Positions 1-11,040 of a DNA stretch of 52,680 nt are shown here, in pieces. Location: contig JALWKV010000104.1 of assembly GCA_027081275.1 (NCBI GenBank), positions 1-52,680 of the forward strand, given 5' to 3'. Position 1 is the stretch's first letter. Each line of letters starts with the position of its first letter. The position numbers and the translations under genes were made by a program. Under the pieces are notes generated by a model. It was given only the letters and a program-made list of their open reading frames with translations, did not search any database and was not told the DNA's origin. Origin of the DNA: Gammaproteobacteria bacterium (GTDB lineage Bacteria; Pseudomonadota; Gammaproteobacteria; UWMA-0217).

Positions 1-2494
1 ACAGTCGCCCTTCGATATCGACGACATAGATGCGATCGGCAACGCCATTGCTGTCGATGTCGATCACACGCGGATTGGCCGGAATGCTGGCGGCGCCGTC
101 GAGATCAGCCTGCCAGAGCTTTTCCCCAGTTCTCGCATTGACGATGAACAGCGTATTGCCCTCGCCACCTCTGATCTTGTCCGCGAAACGACGGTCGGGG
201 TCGGGCTGGTCGTAATCCGGATTGTAACCACCGGAAAAAATGAAAGCTGGCTGATTTTTCTGAGTTCCTTTCTCATCCGGCAGGTAGACCGTTGCAGGCA
301 CCATGCGCGACCATGTCTGCCCCAGATCTTCAAACCCGTCCGTGGCGTCGGAAGGCAATTGATTAAACGATTCAACTTTCGACTCGTCATCAACTTGCCC
401 ACGGATGGCCCAGGCAAGCGACGGCGCGTCCGGATCAGTGATGTCGAGCGCATAGTAATTGACCCCGCCCCGCCGCATGCCGACAACAAGATAGATCGTA
501 GGCTCGCTACCCTCAGTTTCGGACTGGTCGTCCTTCCAGACCGTAATAAATCCATCGAGCCCATAGGGATGCGGCTCATCGAAGGCGTTTTCCTTGCGTA
601 TCTTCAGCACGGGCAACAGTTCCCGCGGAATGAAGGCGAACCTTTCCCGACCGGTTTCGGTATCGATGGCGTGAAGAAACCCCTCGTTGGTGGCAACGAA
701 AATCAGATCGGGACCATTGTCATAGGGGACGATGACAGGGGATGAATGAAGAATGTCGCCCATCTCATGCCGGTACTTCAGTTCGGCGCCCGTCACCGTG
801 GTGTCTTGCCCGTAGGCAAACGCCAGCATTTCTGATACATCGATGCCATCATCATCGAACCAGCCGTGATGTTTCGCATTGTCGGCGGTCAGCGGGATGA
901 GCTCTTCACCATCGCTGGTAATATCGTTTGTAAAGATCGTGCGGTTGCCTTCCAGCAACCGCGCCGCACCACCCGCGGTAATATCGCCCCCATCCGCGGG
1001 GTCATCGGCCGGCAGCCAGAAGCTGCGGCTGTCCTGCTTCGGATTCCCCTTTTCGTCGTAGACGGGCCGATCCAGCGAATCGACGACGACCAGTCCATCG
1101 TCACGCTTGAGACGATACTTTTTCAGATTGCCGGGCCAGCGCGGCGAAATACCCGGACGGAAAAATGGGAAAAAGACATCCTCCCCGTGCGTCAGCCCTG
1201 TTTCGGGATCGACCGAGATCGTGGGAATGGCCAGATCGTGGTTGACCACGGCTATCCGAGTAACAATGTTATTGAAAACCTCCTTCAACTGCGCACTGCT
1301 TTCAGCTCTAAAAAAAGCATCGGCACCTTCCGCACCACTAACCCCCCCGAGATTAGATAATTTGCGCAAATAGTCTTCTGCCTTAGCACTTCCTGCAAAC
1401 GCGATTGCAAAGGTATCCACCGCTTGGATCCCATCTAGGCCTTTCACCCCATCTCGGTCTTTCATTTGGTCAGATACCGCCAAGAACCTCGTCAGTTCTG
1501 GCCCACAACTGCCATCCCCCAAATCCTCACACTGTTCAATACCCAGCTTATTCTTCAACTTCTCTCTGATTTCAATATCGTGATCGATATTGTCTCCCCC
1601 AGAAATTGAAAACCCATCATCTGGCTCACCATCTGACATTAACACTATATAATTGGACTGGCATGTTTCGCTAATAGGAGTTCGATATTGAGCCGACTCC
1701 AACTTATAGGTCTTTACTTTGCAATTGTAATTCGTGTGCGCTTCCACACGCCGCGGCTTACTAAGGTGTCGTATGCATTTCCCTCCCTCGCCCCATTCGG
1801 CACAGGTCTCGTCGTGAGCCGCAACTTCTTCCTTTTTGCAATCGGCTCGCTCACCAATATCTTTGGGGCAGTTACCGGACCCATCCTCATTAACGGTGCA
1901 AAAATACTCATAGACACCCTCCCCTTCAGTTCTTGAACCATCATAAGATAGAGGATGCGCTATTCTTTCCTTCCGGCCTTCCGCTCCGTACTCAACATCA
2001 TCACCACGAAAATAGGCCGCAGCCTCGTATAGCGACTGAACAATAGGCGTTAGTCCTTTAACCTCGAATTTATCTATCTCATTCAGTATTGCATCTCTAA
2101 CACCGCGTTCGGGGTTAGACGGATCTTTCGCTGACAGCGAGGTCACCGGATAGCGTATACCATTGCCCTTCCCTTTCTCATCATGCCCCCCATAGTTGAG
2201 TAGCCCCACATTTACAGTATCAGGAATAGTTGAGAGCACATCCTCCAGAACATCCCGCATAACTTGATAGCGTGTTCTCGCAATACCCTCTGCACTCAGT
2301 TCCAGCGGGTCATTCATACTTCCAGAACTATCCAATACAAAAAGGATATTTGGCTGCCCCGCCTTCGCATAGGAGGTCAGGTAGATCTCGGTGTCATCGG
2401 CAACACCGGCAAATGGCCATGCAACAAGCAATGCCAGCCAAACACCAAACAGCCGTCTCCCCATACGTGGATTTGTCATGTCTCGCATATCCAT
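1..2494 (-). CDS. pilY1: PilY1-type type IV pilus adhesin/biogenesis factor (3' end off window)
   Basis: The frame is open without a break from the ATG at 2494 to base 1, about 831 codons; the C-terminus lies beyond the left edge. A signal peptide (hydrophobic residues 15-30, cut near A32) is followed by a von Willebrand A domain with an intact MIDAS start (VLDSSGSM, D55-x-S-x-S). Seven Cys lie between about residues 198 and 276. The C-terminal part is the PilY1 beta-propeller region, with a calcium-loop-like DIDSNGVAD at 812-820. Family members sit at the pilus tip and support pilus extension, adhesion and surface sensing. It is the last visible gene of the minor-pilin operon. A TAA precedes the ATG at 2494 directly; ATGs at 2488 and 2479 are alternative starts. 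Confidence 0.93.
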   Translation of the reverse strand, partial: MDMRDMTNPRMGRRLFGVWLALLVAWPFAGVADDTEIYLTSYAKAGQPNILFVLDSSGSMNDPLELSAEGIARTRYQVMRDVLEDVLSTIPDTVNVGLLNYGGHDEKGKGNGIRYPVTSLSAKDPSNPERGVRDAILNEIDKFEVKGLTPIVQSLYEAAAYFRGDDVEYGAEGRKERIAHPLSYDGSRTEGEGVYEYFCTVNEDGSGNCPKDIGERADCKKEEVAAHDETCAEWGEGGKCIRHLSKPRRVEAHTNYNCKVKTYKLESAQYRTPISETCQSNYIVLMSDGEPDDGFSISGGDNIDHDIEIREKLKNKLGIEQCEDLGDGSCGPELTRFLAVSDQMKDRDGVKGLDGIQAVDTFAIAFAGSAKAEDYLRKLSNLGGVSGAEGADAFFRAESSAQLKEVFNNIVTRIAVVNHDLAIPTISVDPETGLTHGEDVFFPFFRPGISPRWPGNLKKYRLKRDDGLVVVDSLDRPVYDEKGNPKQDSRSFWLPADDPADGGDITAGGAARLLEGNRTIFTNDITSDGEELIPLTADNAKHHGWFDDDGIDVSEMLAFAYGQDTTVTGAELKYRHEMGDILHSSPVIVPYDNGPDLIFVATNEGFLHAIDTETGRERFAFIPRELLPVLKIRKENAFDEPHPYGLDGFITVWKDDQSETEGSEPTIYLVVGMRRGGVNYYALDITDPDAPSLAWAIRGQVDDESKVESFNQLPSDATDGFEDLGQTWSRMVPATVYLPDEKGTQKNQPAFIFSGGYNPDYDQPDPDRRFADKIRGGEGNTLFIVNARTGEKLWQADLDGAASIPANPRVIDIDSNGVADRIYVVDIEGRL

Positions 2495-2518
2495 TTACAT
2501 GTCTCGCATATCCATTTA
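2477..2518. repeat. 21-bp perfect tandem duplication at the pilX/pilY1 junction
   Basis: Two identical 21-bp units (2477-2497 and 2498-2518). Each unit, read on the minus strand, is TAA followed by ATG GAT ATG CGA GAC ATG. The upstream copy supplies the pilX stop and then a six-codon minicistron MDMRDM closed by the TAA of the next copy; the downstream copy supplies the actual pilY1 start. Confidence 0.95.
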
Positions 2519-3070
2519 CCTGTTCCGCAGCCCGATCGGCGCCACGAGAAGCTCATGCCTCGGCGCCGCCTGACGTCGCTCCTCGGTGCCGGCAACGGCG
2601 GTGATCCGCACCTTCCGCCCCGCAACCGCGGTATCAACGCCAATGCTGTTACCAAAAATCTCGATATCGCCTTCATAGGTCATCCCGGCAACCGCGTCGA
2701 TCGTGACATTGCCACCATCCTCGCCGGCCTGCTCCAGCCCGAACCGGTAGCTGGGCGTTTTCGCCAGCCCCTTGTCGAGACAACTCGCCTTTCTCGGTGC
2801 GTCCGCCAGATCATCCGGGGCGCAGCCGCAGACCGCCTCCCCCGCCCGCGAGCAGGCCAGCACCTTGTCATAGTCGGCCACCTCCATCAGGGCCGATTCC
2901 GCCGCCTGAAACTCGCCGACGCGCTGCTGCGCATTGCCGGCAATCCGCTCGTCCAGCGTGGTCAGCTTCATGGCCGTGACGCCGATCAGCGTCATTGCAA
3001 TCAGCAGAATGAGCCCGACGATCAATACGGCGCCCTGTTGTCGGTGTTGGTTGTGTATCCTCTCGTTCAT
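2516..3070 (-). CDS. pilX: PilX-type minor pilin
   Basis: A 184-residue type IV pilus minor pilin. The N-terminus has the prepilin-peptidase site QQG|AVLIVG followed by a long hydrophobic helix (about residues 12-34) typical of the PilX N-terminal family. Position +5 is V rather than the Glu of major pilins, as I recall for PilX/GspK-like subunits. Three Cys sit in a short stretch around residues 73-83. The ATG at 3070 is preferred. An in-frame TTG at 3079 overlaps the pilW stop and is an alternative. It lies between pilW and pilY1 in a tightly spaced operon, consistent with a tip complex of minor pilins and PilY1. Confidence 0.85.
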   Translation of the reverse strand: MNERIHNQHRQQGAVLIVGLILLIAMTLIGVTAMKLTTLDERIAGNAQQRVGEFQAAESALMEVADYDKVLACSRAGEAVCGCAPDDLADAPRKASCLDKGLAKTPSYRFGLEQAGEDGGNVTIDAVAGMTYEGDIEIFGNSIGVDTAVAGRKVRITAVAGTEERRQAAPRHELLVAPIGLRNR

Positions 3071-3075
3071 GCCGT

Positions 3076-3882
3076 TCAAAAGATGGGCATCCGGTTTCTC
3101 AGCGGAATGGTGGTGGTGAAGACGCGATAGAGCTTGCGGTCGCTGGTGTCGTCGATGACAAACTCCTCGCCCGCCAGGAGAAACGTCTGCGGCTCCCCCA
3201 CGCCCTGATCAAGCACATCCTCGCCACTACTGACGAGCAGCGCAACGCGAATGCTGACAACCTTGCCCCAGTCGGACACGGCGGGAAGCGCCGCATACCG
3301 ATCCGCAAAACCATCTCCAGACTCATCGACGCCGTATTCCACCTGCATCGCAACGACGTTGTCGACCAGCGGCTCCTCGGTAGACTTGCCACTGCCACGA
3401 CACTTGAGCGTGCCACCCTTGATAAAGAACCTGCTGACAACCAGATCTTTCAGCTGGGTCCGATTGCCGACGCAATCCTCTCCAGCTTCCCAGGCGCTGC
3501 CCGGCACCGGCTGATAAGCGACCGTCAGGGTATCACTTGCCCCCTTCTGAATCCCGTCACTGGACGGCTCAAGATCCAGCTCCGCCACCTCGTCCACGGA
3601 GGCATTCTCCCCCAACTGCATCGATCCGATCTGCTGCGCGGAATGAATGACCGGCTCGACCTCGGCATACATCGGATACCCCGCCCGCTGCACCGTCTGC
3701 TCGATCATTCTGATGGCGATGCGGCCGTTCTCCTGCAGCAGCGACAGGCCGTCGCGCGCGTTATAGCTCCGCTTGCCGGTGATATAGACGGAGCCGACGC
3801 CCGCCAGCACGAACAGTCCAATGACCAGCGCGACCATCATCTCCACCAGCGAGAAGCCACGTTGCAGGGCGCGGGACGTCAT
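3076..3882 (-). CDS. pilW: PilW-type minor pilin
   Basis: 268 residues starting MTSRALQRGFSLVEMMVALV: a class III prepilin leader cut after G9, with the conserved Glu at mature position 5. The hydrophobic helix spans about residues 10-32, and the large C-terminal globular domain is PilW-like. The start ATG overlaps the pilV stop (ATGA at 3879-3882), which favours this start over the longer upstream frame and implies translational coupling. PilW is a minor pilin of the priming/tip complex acting in the inner membrane and pilus tip. The order fimT-pilV-pilW-pilX-pilY1 matches the canonical gammaproteobacterial cluster. Confidence 0.88.
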   Translation of the reverse strand: MTSRALQRGFSLVEMMVALVIGLFVLAGVGSVYITGKRSYNARDGLSLLQENGRIAIRMIEQTVQRAGYPMYAEVEPVIHSAQQIGSMQLGENASVDEVAELDLEPSSDGIQKGASDTLTVAYQPVPGSAWEAGEDCVGNRTQLKDLVVSRFFIKGGTLKCRGSGKSTEEPLVDNVVAMQVEYGVDESGDGFADRYAALPAVSDWGKVVSIRVALLVSSGEDVLDQGVGEPQTFLLAGEEFVIDDTSDRKLYRVFTTTIPLRNRMPIF

Positions 3883-4391
3883 GGCACGACCTCCAGCACG
3901 ACGATGCTTTCGGCATCCTGCGCATCGGCTTCGTCCCAGCAGACCTCCACGCGACAACGCCGCTTGCCGGCGCCGATATCGCTGCAGGCCACCCGCATGC
4001 CGCCCTCCGGCAGCAGGTCATCGGCGCCTGCCTCGTCGCCAGCACCCTTTTCTCCACAAGCCATCGAGAACACATCGTAGGCGGCCAGCTGGTCCGGGCT
4101 GCACGTCTCCTTGCGGCAGTCGACCGGAAGCGTGCTGCACTGCGCCGGACGGCAACCATCATTGTTGAGCGCATAGGCATCGGCAACGACACCACCCGGG
4201 TTGGCTCGCAGCCGTTCGGCCATCTCGTTGGCGATCTGCGTCGCCTGGGTGCGGAAATAGGCGCTGCCGGTATGACGCACGCCCCAGAACTGCAGCTTGG
4301 CAAGCCCGAGCAGACCGATGGAAAGCAGCACCACGGCCACCAGCACCTCGACCAGCGAAAAACCCGCCACGCGCCGTCTGCTACCCGTCAT
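3879..4391 (-). CDS. pilV: PilV-type minor pilin
   Basis: 170 residues starting MTGSRRRVAGFSLVEVLVAV. The prepilin cleavage site is G10|F with Glu at +5, followed by a hydrophobic helix LLSIGLLGLAKLQ typical of the PilV family. Several Cys (around residues 80-125) suggest disulfides in the globular head. The first 11 bp overlap the end of fimT and the stop overlaps the pilW start, so the genes are probably translationally coupled. An upstream in-frame start would add ten residues before the leader and is less likely. Confidence 0.88.
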   Translation of the reverse strand: MTGSRRRVAGFSLVEVLVAVVLLSIGLLGLAKLQFWGVRHTGSAYFRTQATQIANEMAERLRANPGGVVADAYALNNDGCRPAQCSTLPVDCRKETCSPDQLAAYDVFSMACGEKGAGDEAGADDLLPEGGMRVACSDIGAGKRRCRVEVCWDEADAQDAESIVVLEVVP

Positions 4392-4893
4392 CGTCACTCG
4401 CCACCTTGGAGGCACGCACACTCCCGCCGATCGTCACCTCGACCTTGCGGGCCATCGGATCTTTCTCCTTTCCCTCGTCCCTGACATAGCTCGCTCTCTG
4501 AATCGTGATGGTTCCCGGGACATTCACCCTCCCCTCGCCGTCGAAAACCAGCGCAGCCGGCTGTGTCGATACATCGACCAGGGCATCGGGCACGTCGACG
4601 ACCTGCAACACCTCACCACCCGCGATTACCATCCAGCCCTTCCGCCATTCGCTGCCACAGCGGTTGTCGCTGCCAAGCGGGCAGAGGGTGACACTGGCGT
4701 TACGCTTGACCGCCTCGGAGCGCGCCAGGTGGATGCTGGACACCAGCTTGTTGGTCTGGGAGCTGAGGCGGTTGTTGTCGAGCACCGCTTTCAGGCCCGG
4801 CACGCCGATGACGGTGATGACGCCGATCACGGCAACGGTGATCATCAGCTCCACCAGCGTGAAGCCGGAGCAGGAATGCTGTCGTGGACACAT
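4381..4893 (-). CDS. fimT: GspH/FimT family pseudopilin (first gene of minor-pilin operon)
   Basis: 170 residues starting MCPRQHSCSGFTLVELMITV: prepilin leader cut after G10, Glu at +5, and the GspH/FimT core with the LARSEAVKRNASVTLCP signature near residues 56-72. It fits FimT/FimU minor pilins, which assemble into the pilus-priming complex; FimT proteins in some species also bind DNA for natural transformation. The ATG at 4893 is chosen because it places the leader at the N-terminus; the open frame runs further upstream without a leader. The 265-bp gap up to 5158 is divergent with another pseudopilin and should hold both promoters. Confidence 0.85.
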   Translation of the reverse strand: MCPRQHSCSGFTLVELMITVAVIGVITVIGVPGLKAVLDNNRLSSQTNKLVSSIHLARSEAVKRNASVTLCPLGSDNRCGSEWRKGWMVIAGGEVLQVVDVPDALVDVSTQPAALVFDGEGRVNVPGTITIQRASYVRDEGKEKDPMARKVEVTIGGSVRASKVASDDDG

Positions 4894-5158
4894 GATTTCA
4901 AGTTTACGAGAAAACTTGCGCTGGTGCGCAGAAGCACGTCGGATTTCGACGACTCGCCGACATACGGTAGAAGAGCCGAACGCGGACGCATAAGCACCCG
5001 CCCCCGATACAACACCAACCATCGGCAACAATGTGAAGCGCCCGGCACTGTCACCGCCACCACCCTACCGTCCAAACCACGCGCTTCATAGGCTTTCCCC
5101 GTCATGATATGCGACGCGGGGAAAGGAAGTGTCCCGCCACAAGCACAGGAAAGCAGCG

Positions 5159-5725: not shown

Positions 5726-5776
5726 CCAAGAAATACCGTTGCTGCCCCCCTTCGTTCCCGCAGTCGATAAAGCCCT

Positions 5777-5944
5777 CTCCCCGCGGGGGAGACGACTGCA
5801 TGGACGCAGGAGGTAGGGCGATGCAGGAAGCCGAAGCCGAGGGTTTGGGAGAGGGGGATAAACCATTGTTTTTCACCCTCTCCCCGGCCCTCTCCCTCAA
5901 GGGAGAGGGAGAAATACGAGTTTTGCGACACCCTCCGAAAAAGG
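5777..5944 (-). repeat. CCCTCTCCC-rich palindromic repeat (copy 1)
   Basis: This lies in the 365-bp gap 5726-6090, which otherwise shows no gene. On the minus strand it begins GAGGGTGTCGCAAAA and contains paired CCCTCTCCC/GGGAGAGGG arms and the phrase AAACAATGGTTTA. The same units recur at 19756-19865 and 40676-40785. A neighbouring phrase, GGCATTCATCCCTCC (minus strand, about 5963-5995), recurs at about 40467. Confidence 0.7.
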
Positions 5945-6090
5945 GGGAAGAAAGCCTCCCTTGGCGAAGGGAGGTTTGGAGGGATGAATGCCTCGGAGAT
6001 GGAGCCAACAAGCGAGTATTGTCACGTAGTCCGAGTGTCAGATACCTGGAAGCACAGCCCTGGCTGAAGCGGCAGACGCCGCGACGAGGC

Positions 6091-6513
6091 TCAGCCAGCG
6101 TTGCGAACGCGGACGACGATATCGACGCCGGTGATCTCGATGCCGGTTTCCAGCGCGGGCAGGCCGGAGACGACAAGGTCGCGCGATTCGATGTCCCGCA
6201 GCTCGCCGGTGTCGACGTTGTAGAGATGGTGATGGGGTGAGACGTTGGTGTCGAAGATCTGCTTGCCGGGATCGACGACGACCTCGCGCAGCAGACCTTT
6301 CGCGGCGAACAGCCCCAATGTGTTGTAGACCGTGGCCTTGGAGACCTCGCCGTTGCCGCGATTGACCCGCTCGAGCAACTGATCGGCGGTGATGTGCTTG
6401 TCGCAATCGAACAGGCGCATGCCGATCTCGACGCGCTGCCGCGTGGGCGTGATGCCATTGCGCACCAGCCTGGCGGTGACGTCTTTGCGAAGTTGCTCAT
6501 GTTCCTGATTCAT
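6091..6513 (-). CDS. Fur-superfamily regulator, Irr-like (no CxxC zinc site)
   Basis: 140 residues. The N-terminal winged helix is typical of Fur proteins (GITPTRQRV near residue 20; SKATVYNTLGLF near 58-69). The C-terminal half carries FDTNVSPHHHLYNVDTGEL, whose HHH motif resembles the haem/iron-sensing Irr and PerR-like branches. The CxxC structural zinc pairs of classical Fur are absent; the only Cys is C37. It is therefore probably an iron-, haem- or peroxide-responsive repressor rather than a canonical Fur; the exact ligand is inference. No Shine-Dalgarno is visible, and a plausible -35/-10 pair places transcription start close to the ATG. Confidence 0.85.
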   Translation of the reverse strand: MNQEHEQLRKDVTARLVRNGITPTRQRVEIGMRLFDCDKHITADQLLERVNRGNGEVSKATVYNTLGLFAAKGLLREVVVDPGKQIFDTNVSPHHHLYNVDTGELRDIESRDLVVSGLPALETGIEITGVDIVVRVRNAG

Positions 6514-6520
6514 AAGAAAA

Positions 6521-6548
6521 AGGATACATGGTGGGCCTGCAGATGCAA
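6521..6548 (-). promoter_or_regulatory. Candidate promoter of the Irr-like regulator, near-leaderless
   Basis: On the minus strand, TTGCAT (6548-6543), a 16-bp spacer, then TATCCT (6526-6521). The ATG follows the -10 by eight bases, with no ribosome-binding site between. Confidence 0.5.
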
Positions 6549-6588
6549 AAAATGCCTCACAGAATCAGCGATATTGGTCACAATTCCT

Positions 6589-6613
6589 GCTCGGGTTTAC
6601 CCAGAACCCGAGC
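6589..6613 (-). terminator. Hairpin between thiO stop and the regulator
   Basis: Perfect 9-bp stem GCTCGGGTT/AACCCGAGC with a 7-base loop, just after the thiO stop. It lacks a T-run, so it may be a weak terminator or an mRNA 3'-end stabiliser. Confidence 0.4.
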
Positions 6614-6621
6614 CCGCCAGT

Positions 6622-7716
6622 TCACCCCAGCGCATAGGGCGCGGGGTCGACAAACGGCTGCTCGCCAGTCATCAGCTGCGCGGCCAGCAGCGCCGAGCCC
6701 AACCCCATGACGATGCCGTTGCGGAACTGACCGGCGTTGACGAACAGCCCCTCGATCGCCGGACACGGCCCGATGAAGGGGACGCCATCGGCAGTTCCCG
6801 GTCGCAGCCCCGCCCACTGATTGACCACCGGGCAGCCCGCCAGCGCGGGAAACAGCGCAATGGCCGACGCCTTGAGGTCTTCCAGCGCCGCCGCCGTTGT
6901 GCGTTTTTCGAAGCTGCCCGGCTCCAGCGTACTGCCGATCAGAACCAGACCATCCTTGCGCGGAATCAGGTAACGACTCTCGCGCATGACCATGCGGGTC
7001 AGTTGGCCCGGCTCGGCCTGAAACTGGACGATCTGTCCCTTGACCGGCTCGATCTTCGCCGGCGCGGGACAGCCGGGAGGCATCAATCCGCCGGTCCAGG
7101 CGCCGGCGGTGATGAGGACGCTATCGGCGGCAATGGTCTCGCCGCTGTCGAGCCTGACGCCGGTGATGCGATCCCCCTGCTGCAACAGTCCGGCCACCGG
7201 CGCATGCTCGCGAATCGTCAGCCCAGCCGTGTGCCGCGCCCGCGCCGCCAGCGCCTTCGCCAGCCGCGGGTTGCGCACCTGTTGGATCTCCGGCATCCAC
7301 AGCCCCGACTCGAAGCGGGCATCCAGCCCCGGCTGGACCGCATCGAGCGCCTGCCGGGACGTGAGACGCTCTATCTTCATCGACCACTTGTCGGCCCACT
7401 CCCACATGCCCGGCTCCGGCTCATCCAGCATCAGCATGCCCGAGGGAAGCAGCTCGGGATCGATGCCGGTCTCGTCGCGCAGCCGCGCCAGCACCTCGGG
7501 ATAGCGCCGCTGACCGTAGACCGCCAGCCGGTTGACCGCATCCGGATAGCGCCACGGATACATCGGCGAGACGATACCGCCACCGGCCCAGCTGGACTCG
7601 CGCGCCAGCGCCCCCTTTTCGAGCAACAGCACCTTCCGGCCCCGCTCGACGAGAAAATGGGCCGACATCAGGCCAATGGCGCCACCACCGACAACGATGC
7701 AATCCGGATTCGACAT
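6622..7716 (-). CDS. thiO: Glycine oxidase ThiO
   Basis: 364 residues. The FAD-dependent D-amino-acid oxidase/DAO fold begins with the dinucleotide motif VVGGGAIG at residues 8-15. It ends with the DAO C-terminal signature (LRPGTADGVPFIGP and GQFRNGIVMGLGSA). ThiO oxidises glycine to the imine used by ThiG to build the thiazole ring of thiamine in aerobic bacteria. The ATG at 7716 puts the FAD motif at the N-terminus; an upstream in-frame start would add 21 unrelated residues. It is divergent from thiS-thiG across a 154-bp gap, and this context supports ThiO over other DAO enzymes. Confidence 0.9.
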   Translation of the reverse strand: MSNPDCIVVGGGAIGLMSAHFLVERGRKVLLLEKGALARESSWAGGGIVSPMYPWRYPDAVNRLAVYGQRRYPEVLARLRDETGIDPELLPSGMLMLDEPEPGMWEWADKWSMKIERLTSRQALDAVQPGLDARFESGLWMPEIQQVRNPRLAKALAARARHTAGLTIREHAPVAGLLQQGDRITGVRLDSGETIAADSVLITAGAWTGGLMPPGCPAPAKIEPVKGQIVQFQAEPGQLTRMVMRESRYLIPRKDGLVLIGSTLEPGSFEKRTTAAALEDLKASAIALFPALAGCPVVNQWAGLRPGTADGVPFIGPCPAIEGLFVNAGQFRNGIVMGLGSALLAAQLMTGEQPFVDPAPYALG

Positions 7717-7870
7717 AAAACCCCTCGAAAACTGAGCAATTGGGACTCCGGGGCGAGTATAGATTGAAGGCGCATCCAATCACAGCAGCGCCACACAACA
7801 TCAATGATGGTTTCGCCAGACCCGGTGAATACCCTACAATACGGCTTTCCCAGCGATACCCGGCCAGAGC

Positions 7871-8071
7871 ATGCAGATCACCGTCAACGGCGAGCCGATG
7901 GAAACACCCGACAACATCACCGCGGCCGAGCTGATCCGGCGGCTCGACCTCGAAAACGAACGTCTGGCGATGGAGATCAACGAACAGATCGCCCCCCGCA
8001 GCCGCCACGACCAGATCGTGATCCAGCCCGGAGACAAGGTCGAAATCGTCCGCGCCATCGGCGGCGGTTGA
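7871..8071 (+). CDS. thiS: Sulfur-carrier protein ThiS
   Basis: 66 residues with a ubiquitin-like beta-grasp sequence and the essential C-terminal Gly-Gly (AIGGG) that is adenylated and thiocarboxylated. It donates sulfur to the thiazole synthase ThiG. thiG starts 46 bases downstream. A TACAAT at 7835-7840 could be the -10 element. I looked for a THI-box (TPP riboswitch) upstream and saw none, although the gap is short. The length is normal for the family. Confidence 0.95.
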
Positions 8072-8117
8072 CCCTCGCCCCGCCCAATCCCTTGCCCACA
8101 CAAGTCAGAGAACCGCA

Positions 8118-8906
8118 ATGCCCATAGAAGCCGACACCCTCAACATCAACGGCAGGATCTTCCATTCCCGGCTGCTGGTCGGCACCGGCAAGTACAGGGA
8201 CATGGAAGAGACCCGGCTGGCCATCGAGGCCAGCGGCGCCGAGATCATCACCGTCGCGATTCGCCGCACCAATATCGGCCAGAATCCGGGCGAGGCCAAT
8301 CTGCTCGACACCCTCCCCGCCGACAAGTACACCTACCTGCCCAACACGGCCGGCTGCTACAGCGCCGAGGACGCGGTGCGCACCTGCCGGCTGGCGCGCG
8401 AACTGCTCGACGATCACACGCTGGTCAAGCTGGAGGTGCTGGGCGACGAGAAGACGCTGTTCCCGCACGTCACCGAAACGCTGAAGGCGGCACAGACGCT
8501 GGTCGACGAGGGTTTCGAGGTGATGGTCTACACCAATGACGACCCGATCATCGCGCGCGAGCTGGAACAGATCGGCTGCGTCGCCGTGATGCCGCTGGCG
8601 GCGCCGATCGGCTCCGGTCTCGGCATCCGCAACCCCTACAACATTCTCGAGATCATCGAGAACGCCAATGTCCCGGTCATCGTCGATGCCGGCGTCGGCA
8701 CCGCCTCCGACGCCGCCGTGGCGATGGAGCTGGGCTGCGACGGCGTGCTGATGAATACCGCCATCGCGGCGGCGCAGAACCCGGTGCTGATGGCGTCGGC
8801 GATGAAGAAGGCCATCGAGGCCGGACGCGAGGCCTTCCTTGCCGGGCGGATGCCGCGCAAGCGCTACGCCTCGGCCTCTTCCCCCATCGACGGCACCTTT
8901 TTCTGA
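8118..8906 (+). CDS. thiG: Thiazole synthase ThiG
   Basis: 262 residues of a TIM-barrel thiazole synthase. The Schiff-base lysine region [16 protein letters not shown] lies near residues 103-118, and the phosphate-binding loops [12 protein letters not shown] and [11 protein letters not shown] follow. It condenses 1-deoxy-D-xylulose 5-phosphate, dehydroglycine from ThiO and ThiS thiocarboxylate into the thiazole phosphate. It is cytosolic and co-directional with thiS and trmB (16-bp gap to trmB), an arrangement common in gammaproteobacteria. Confidence 0.97.
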
Positions 8907-8922
8907 GCCCGGTCGGCAGCCG

Positions 8923-9654
8923 ATGTCCGAGACGCGCGACGCCATCATCCAGCGCCTGCCGGCGGTGCCGCATCCGCGCCAGATCAAGAGCTTCGTCCAG
9001 CGACAGGGCCGGCTCACCCGGGGGCAGGCCCGCGCCATCGAACAGCTCTGGCCGCATTTCGGCCTCGAACTCGGCGAGACACCACTCGACCTGACGCAAA
9101 TCTTTGGCCGCGCCGCGCCGGTCACGCTGGAGATCGGCTTCGGCAATGGCCAGTCGCTGGCCGACATGGCGCTGGCCGAGCCGCGGCGCGACTTCATCGG
9201 CATCGAAGTCCACCGTCCCGGCGTCGGCCAGCTGCTGCAACGCATCGAACGGGACGGCATCGACAATATCCGCATCTTCTGCGCCGACGCTCACGACGTG
9301 CTGGACGCGATGATCCCGGCCGGGTCACTCGACCGCATCCAGCTCTTCTTCCCCGATCCCTGGCCGAAAAAGAAGCATCACAAGCGCCGCATCCTCTCCC
9401 CCGCCTTCGCCACGCTGGCCGCCAGCCGGCTGCGCCCCGGCGGCCTGCTGCACATGGCCACCGACTGGACGCCCTATGCCGAGGCGGCGCTGGCGATACT
9501 GGAGGCCCACGCGGCCTTCGCAAACACGAGCGACGGCTTTGCGCCGCGCCCCGACTGGCGGCCGCTGACCAAGTTCGAGCAACGCGGACAGCGACTCGGC
9601 CACGACGTCCACGACCTCATCTTTCGCCGTGTCGCCAGCGACGATTCGGCCTGA
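8923..9654 (+). CDS. trmB: tRNA (guanine-N7)-methyltransferase TrmB
   Basis: 243 residues. The SAM-binding motif I is LEIGFGNGQSLADMA (about residues 68-82) and the family signature is FFPDPWPKKKHHKRR (about 143-157). The enzyme methylates G46 in the variable loop of tRNAs. The start at 8923 follows the thiG stop by 16 bases; an earlier in-frame start would overlap thiG and lacks conserved sequence. It is co-transcribed with thiS-thiG by position, not by function. Confidence 0.95.
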   Translation: MSETRDAIIQRLPAVPHPRQIKSFVQRQGRLTRGQARAIEQLWPHFGLELGETPLDLTQIFGRAAPVTLEIGFGNGQSLADMALAEPRRDFIGIEVHRPGVGQLLQRIERDGIDNIRIFCADAHDVLDAMIPAGSLDRIQLFFPDPWPKKKHHKRRILSPAFATLAASRLRPGGLLHMATDWTPYAEAALAILEAHAAFANTSDGFAPRPDWRPLTKFEQRGQRLGHDVHDLIFRRVASDDSA

Positions 9655-10859: not shown

Positions 10860-11040
10860 CTAGCCCATTCTTACCAGTGTTCGTAGCGAGACGGTTCGAG
10901 GGTGCGTCATGGCAGGCTTTCGCGACCGAGGAGCGCGCAGGCATGGCCGACACCATATCGAGCACTCCGACCGAGCAAAAGCCAGTCAGGGCGTGCCATT
11001 GGGCCGCCGCAGTAGAAGGATGGTGAGAAATGCGGGCTAG
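10860..11040. mobile_element. MITE-like element with CTAGCCC ends, in front of the FIST gene
   Basis: 181 bp bounded by CTAG on both sides. The ends are imperfect inverted repeats: CTAGCCCATTCTTACCA at the left and, read inward from the right, CTAGCCCGCATTTCTCACCA. The right end is like those of the 160-bp elements at 19567 and 40211, but the interior differs. No transposase is encoded. It lies between the prk terminator and the FIST gene start 18 bases beyond, so the FIST promoter may lie inside it. Confidence 0.6.

Follow-up and report, generated by a model that had tools for sequence, protein, structure and literature searches.

The window analysed here, 52,680 bases of a Gammaproteobacteria bacterium assembly (GCA_027081275.1) that make up the entire contig JALWKV010000104.1 (hereafter C104), carries two exact tandem copies of a 21-bp unit at the junction between the minor-pilin gene pilX and the gene of the pilus-tip protein PilY1. 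The most fitting class for it is that of a small tandem duplication located where two genes are probably coupled in translation. The explanation that we hold to be probable is that the duplication is recent, that it adds a six-codon minicistron acting as a relay with a modest loss of PilY1, and that it most likely represents a near-neutral variant and not an evolved switch. Specifically, most translation of pilY1 would come from ribosomes that reach the end of pilX and reinitiate at the ATG touching its stop. With two units, these ribosomes would first reinitiate on the minicistron, terminate after six codons, and reinitiate once more on pilY1. Two termination-reinitiation steps would take the place of one, with a modest loss from the added step, and since such a relay keeps the stop-start spacing at zero nucleotides, a distance favourable to coupling, PilY1 would still be made.

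Anatomy of the duplication

Direct reading places the two copies of CATGTCTCGCATATCCATTTA at positions 2477-2518, which on the minus strand, where the pilin genes are encoded, correspond to (TAAATGGATATGCGAGACATG)x2. The minus-strand junction reads pilX ...AGG TAA, ATG GAT ATG CGA GAC ATG TAA, ATG GAT ATG CGA GAC ATG ACA AAT CCA CGT ATG GGG..., in a single frame throughout. The first unit (2498-2518) holds the pilX stop and the start codons that follow it, while the second, identical unit (2477-2497) holds the stop of the minicistron and the pilY1 start codons; both were recovered by direct reading, Tandem Repeats Finder and our scans. Codon by codon, the pilX TAA lies at 2518-2516, six codons follow at 2515-2498, a TAA stands at 2497-2495, and the pilY1 frame runs from 2494 onward, open to the window edge. 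The minicistron predicted from translation (2495-2515, minus strand; MDMRDM-stop) has a TAA that abuts the first in-frame pilY1 ATG, so the extra copy inserts a six-codon frame whose stop again adjoins the next ATG. Because each unit opens with a stop codon and keeps the frame, neither the PilX C-terminus nor the PilY1 N-terminus changes between one unit and two. The initial annotation had described this duplication, its stop-plus-start content, the resulting minicistron and its neutrality for both frames, and all of these are borne out. Its placement of the minicistron before the true pilY1 ATG stands as far as the abutting TAA goes, and not as to which ATG is the true one, since the in-frame candidates lie at 2494, 2488, 2479 and 2464.

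The repeat is exceptional in its surroundings. Tandem Repeats Finder ranked it at the top of 30 rows (2477-2523, period 21, score 87), and our own scan found it to be the sole exact tandem duplication of period 10-120 in the 52,680 bases (2477-2519, self-match run of 22). Simulation of 200 first-order Markov sequences gave longest runs of this kind of at most 14 (mean 11.1, periods 12-60), and a chance origin is rejected. No Rfam match at gathering thresholds was found anywhere in the window.

A false duplication could also be produced by assembly, if contig ends overlapping by the k-mer length k were joined untrimmed and left a perfect 21-bp repeat. The value 21 is a common smallest assembly k-mer size, the copies are perfect with a period equal to such a k, and the genome, taken to be metagenome-assembled, is fragmented (297 contigs including this one; 3.19 Mb, completeness 98.5%, contamination 4.2%), and a competing single-unit allele could have branched the assembly graph. 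The sampled genome speaks otherwise. Across 77 stretches including the window and contig C169 (24 of the 77 wholly N; 740,960 non-N bases, about a quarter of the genome), seven exact tandem duplications of period 12-159 were present, one of period 18 and one of period 21, the latter being the pilX-pilY1 repeat itself; no further one of period 21, nor any of period 22-159, occurred in these readable bases. Moreover, the repeat lies about 2.5 kb inside the contig. A systematic k-mer duplication artefact is rejected, the sampled quarter of the genome having yielded no other instance, and a single artefact is quite unlikely.

A one-unit allele in the same assembly

The contig C169 (3318 bp) of the same assembly carries the 3' part of pilW, pilX and the 5' part of pilY1, with a single unit at its positions 872-892. 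Its positions 804-1017 (214 bp) are identical to the window except for the 21-bp insertion or deletion. Between the two contigs, pilX is 96.7% identical, with 14 synonymous and three nonsynonymous codon differences, and the pilW tail is 97.4% identical, with five and two, respectively. The unit number therefore differs between close alleles of one assembly and is not fixed. When up to two mismatches are allowed, the unit is found nowhere in the genome beyond its two copies on C104 and the one on C169, and it is absent from four other genomes of the order. The identity of the copies and the one-unit sister allele point to the duplication being a recent gain, with a recent loss in C169 as the alternative.

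C169 may represent either the allele of another strain or a second locus within one genome. The two contigs break off in the same gene no more than about 110 bases apart, a pattern that recalls an unresolved fork in the assembly. A 10-kb query of neighbouring window DNA gave no other near-identical contig among the matches listed (40 of 446 candidates scored), and the sampled stretches held no pair of at least 400 bp at 88% identity or more except one repeat common to three stretches, a weak test given the few pairs in the sample. No contig yielded the C-terminal part of this pilY1, and the sole match for that part was a paralogue on contig C213.

Start sites and probable translational coupling at the junction

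The ATGs at the junction have only weak pairing with the anti-Shine-Dalgarno sequence (the E. coli letters were used for the duplex energies), the best duplexes ranging from -3.0 to -4.1 kcal/mol. The start sites of pilX, pilW, pilV and fimU were left out as a standard of comparison, since some of the coordinates entered for them missed the start codon. Of the four other genomes of the family, three place a candidate pilY1 start at the pilX stop: overlapping it as TAATG in the genus mate G001, directly behind it as TAA GTG ATG in G004, and as an ATGA overlap in G002. Weak ribosome sites together with these starts make coupled translation of pilY1 to pilX likely on sequence grounds, and the coupling zone in which the initial annotation had placed the minicistron is accordingly a probable one. 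If the first in-frame ATG is used, the TAA/ATG spacing is zero throughout, for the two steps of the window junction as well as for the single step of C169.

This spacing matters in view of measurements on reinitiation. In three native E. coli gene pairs, a distance of +14 nucleotides lowered reinitiation by 40-80% and one of +38 (almost) abolished it (PMC10666635), and the abstract of the same study describes coupling as nearly abolished at about 20 nucleotides. By analogy, a bare 21-nucleotide insertion would be expected to weaken coupling; here, the insertion brings its own start and stop, so the spacing stays at zero. The last 15 nucleotides of the upstream gene are reported to be enough for coupling (PMC10666635) and, combined with the distance effect, this suggests that a 21-nucleotide minicistron could plausibly carry coupling across the insert. 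With one unit, the best weak ribosome site (-4.1 kcal/mol) precedes the pilY1 starts; with two, it precedes the minicistron, and the pilY1 starts are left with duplexes of -3.0 to -3.1 kcal/mol. Such a shift would fit a small PilY1 loss, and the duplication may lower PilY1 modestly. An altered structure of the start site was rejected as a cause: with matched flanks of 50, 80 and 100 bases, the mean unpaired probability round the first pilY1 ATG was 0.48, 0.47 and 0.33 with two units and 0.49, 0.30 and 0.31 with one, with no consistent difference.

Several points weigh against the relay and the history proposed for it. In G003, the first possible start of the long frame lies at +19, and G002 has, besides its ATGA overlap, a second start at +17 behind GGGGGAG, so that not all members of the family are tightly coupled here. 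The 15-nucleotide figure was obtained for the end of a longer gene and not for a six-codon frame, and restart on a six-codon minicistron is not among the cases drawn on from PMC10666635; the relay and its dose effect are proposals drawn from the sequence. With two alleles only, the direction of gain or loss rests on parsimony. Lastly, translation of pilY1 may begin at one of the later in-frame ATGs (2488, 2479 or 2464), which would need no relay.

The last point can be carried further, to a unit that has no effect: pilY1 would start independently at a later ATG, for instance 2464, right before the signal peptide, and the unit would be a passive spacer. From 2464, MGRRLFGVWLALLVAWPFAGVA reads by eye as a complete signal peptide, and the leader before 2464 is poorly conserved in G001, where the first 78 bases from 2479 share 40.6% nucleotide identity over 69 aligned positions. 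Against this stand the ribosome-site matches of ATG 2464, none better than -3.0 kcal/mol, and the frame itself, which G001 and G004 also keep open back to the pilX stop. An inert spacer is unlikely. If the relay does work, the natural one- and two-unit alleles offer a clean pair for measuring the loss per restart step in coupling.

Other junctions and known systems

A control set was drawn from named genomes, in which 52 PilX-like loci were located and 51 junctions examined, one locus having run off its contig; the downstream gene was confirmed as pilY1 in part of them, which makes it a loose control. None of the 51 junctions downstream of these PilX-like genes has an exact tandem duplication of period 10-59, and two have 9-bp tandem duplications away from the stop. 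An ATG-started minicistron separates the PilX stop from a long downstream open reading frame in four of the 33 junctions where such a frame was found, so a minicistron as such is not rare. At the loci L021 and L026, the gene downstream does not resemble pilY1. A literature search found no title or abstract on a duplication at the pilX-pilY1 junction among the records listed, which is not proof of absence.

Among known systems, the junction resembles the mycobacterial interspersed repetitive units (MIRUs), in which an open reading frame within the repeat is coupled to the following gene (PMC12548453). At senX3-regX3, there are three 77-bp units in H37Rv and two 77-bp units plus one of 53 bp in CDC1551, and the MIRU region has promoter activity (PMC4213456). 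Both cases place a small open reading frame in a repeat next to a gene, and the make-up of the units differs between strains at senX3-regX3, as the number of units does between alleles here. In contrast to MIRUs, the pilX-pilY1 unit is 21 bp long and duplicates the junction on the spot: with up to two mismatches allowed it is confined to C104 and C169 instead of being a dispersed, mobile repeat, and its minicistron (2515-2495) abuts pilY1 at a spacing of 0, compared with -4 for MIRU. Not being dispersed, the pilX-pilY1 case is not a MIRU. It also resembles ordinary termination-reinitiation, in which coupling requires a short distance (PMC10666635), as stop and start touch; the difference is the interposed six-codon frame, which makes two restart steps of one. 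Translational coupling is, moreover, marked in the pilY1 gene-cluster figure of a myxobacterial PilY1 study, which also names Neisseria PilC as the PilY1 counterpart (PMC13190605).

Neisseria pilC undergoes phase variation through a poly-G tract that switches the gene by moving it in or out of frame (PMC5320596). Both systems concern a PilY1-family protein with a repeat near the 5' end of its gene, whereas the poly-G tract causes frameshifts and the 21-bp unit, seen in two copies and two alleles, is frame-neutral. If the duplication is read as a dose rheostat, slippage would change the unit number at a useful rate, each unit would lower PilY1 by one restart step, and the amount of PilY1 would vary reversibly among cells. 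Two copy-number states within one assembly, as expected of a contingency locus whose copy number differs among related genomes or cells, are consistent with it, as are the phase variation of a PilY1-family gene elsewhere and the move of the weak ribosome-site match from pilY1 to the minicistron. Conversely, a contingency locus has many copies prone to slippage, and here two perfect copies are the most seen, with no allele of three or more; the absence of the unit from the other genomes of the order, the lack of comparable duplications at the named-genome junctions and the folding result likewise argue against it. A rheostat is rather improbable. Of the copy-number change suggested by the initial annotation, variation in number holds while back-and-forth switching finds no support in two alleles with two copies at most, and the tuning of PilY1 levels suggested there stays hypothetical.

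Mosaic structure of the pilY1 alleles

The two alleles differ far more inside pilY1 than at the junction. From 2352 to about 1285 (minus strand), in the region resembling a von Willebrand factor A (vWA) domain, they share 56.8% of nucleotides and 56.9% of residues, and the GC content at third codon positions (GC3) is 44% in the window compared with 72% in C169. The following block (1280-560) is 94.7% identical with a GC3 of 66-68%, a second divergent block (555-200) is 68.0% identical, and the sequence beyond it is 96.7% identical. Such a low GC3 suggests an outside source for the vWA region of the window allele; in comparison with G001, the region of C169 is somewhat closer (62.5% of nucleotides) than that of the window (59.3%). 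With the vWA region standing between blocks of 95-100% identity, the pair looks like two mosaic alleles with a tip domain replaced by recombination. The boundary of the exchange lies about 125 bp from the duplication, and the exchange is a far larger protein change than the adjoining duplication. It may also be the more consequential one, as the pilus-tip protein appears to swap its vWA region among close relatives while the preceding genes are nearly constant.

Duplication and exchange could be combined in a digital translational attenuator, by which PilY1 yield would drop by a constant factor per unit with the proteins untouched, and the population would keep one- and two-unit forms and exchange vWA regions by way of the 214-bp junction common to both alleles, so that dose and specificity of the tip would be tuned jointly. 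This proposal is very doubtful.

The minor-pilin operon and other features of the window

The operon lies on the minus strand in the order fimU-pilV-pilW-pilX-pilY1, and the linkage of pilY1 to its neighbours is supported by Pfam and NCBIfam matches. It comprises a fimU-like minor pilin with a GspH domain (4384-4962, approximate ends; Pfam GspH, E 5.4e-17), pilV (3879-4421, approximate start; NCBIfam type_IV_pilV, E 6.4e-23, above cut-off), pilW (3076-3882, approximate start; Pfam PilW, E 3.4e-22), pilX (2516-3070, an open reading frame with its TAA at 2518-2516; Pfam PilX_N, E 7.2e-14, above cut-off), and the 5' part of pilY1 (1-2494), which is cut by the contig start and covers the signal-peptide-like start, the vWA-like region and the beginning of the beta-propeller. 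The truncated PilY1 matches Pfam VWA_2 (E 7.5e-5) and T4P_PilY1 (E 1.6e-5), both under the curated cut-offs (24.4 bits compared with 28.1 for the latter, on a protein truncated by the contig end), and shares 57.8% identity over residues 6-826 with the pilX-linked protein of G001. A second minor-pilin locus is present in the same genome (L007/L025, C213 at about 6200-9280), with a PilX-like protein (31% identity over 68 residues) and, behind it, a PilY1-like protein (35%).

Elsewhere in the window, a dispersed repeat of about 173 bp lies at about 10868-11040; it accounts for at least 37 of the 44 matches listed for the 10-kb query, with copies of 84-91% identity spread over many contigs, and BLAST finds it 23 times in the sampled stretches, the window copy counted. 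No inverted repeat of at least 10 bp was found within it. A second dispersed element, at about 5769-5996, carries the inverted repeats CCCTCTCCCT/AGGGAGAGGG; for this one, the sampled stretches give 20 BLAST matches, again with the window copy counted.
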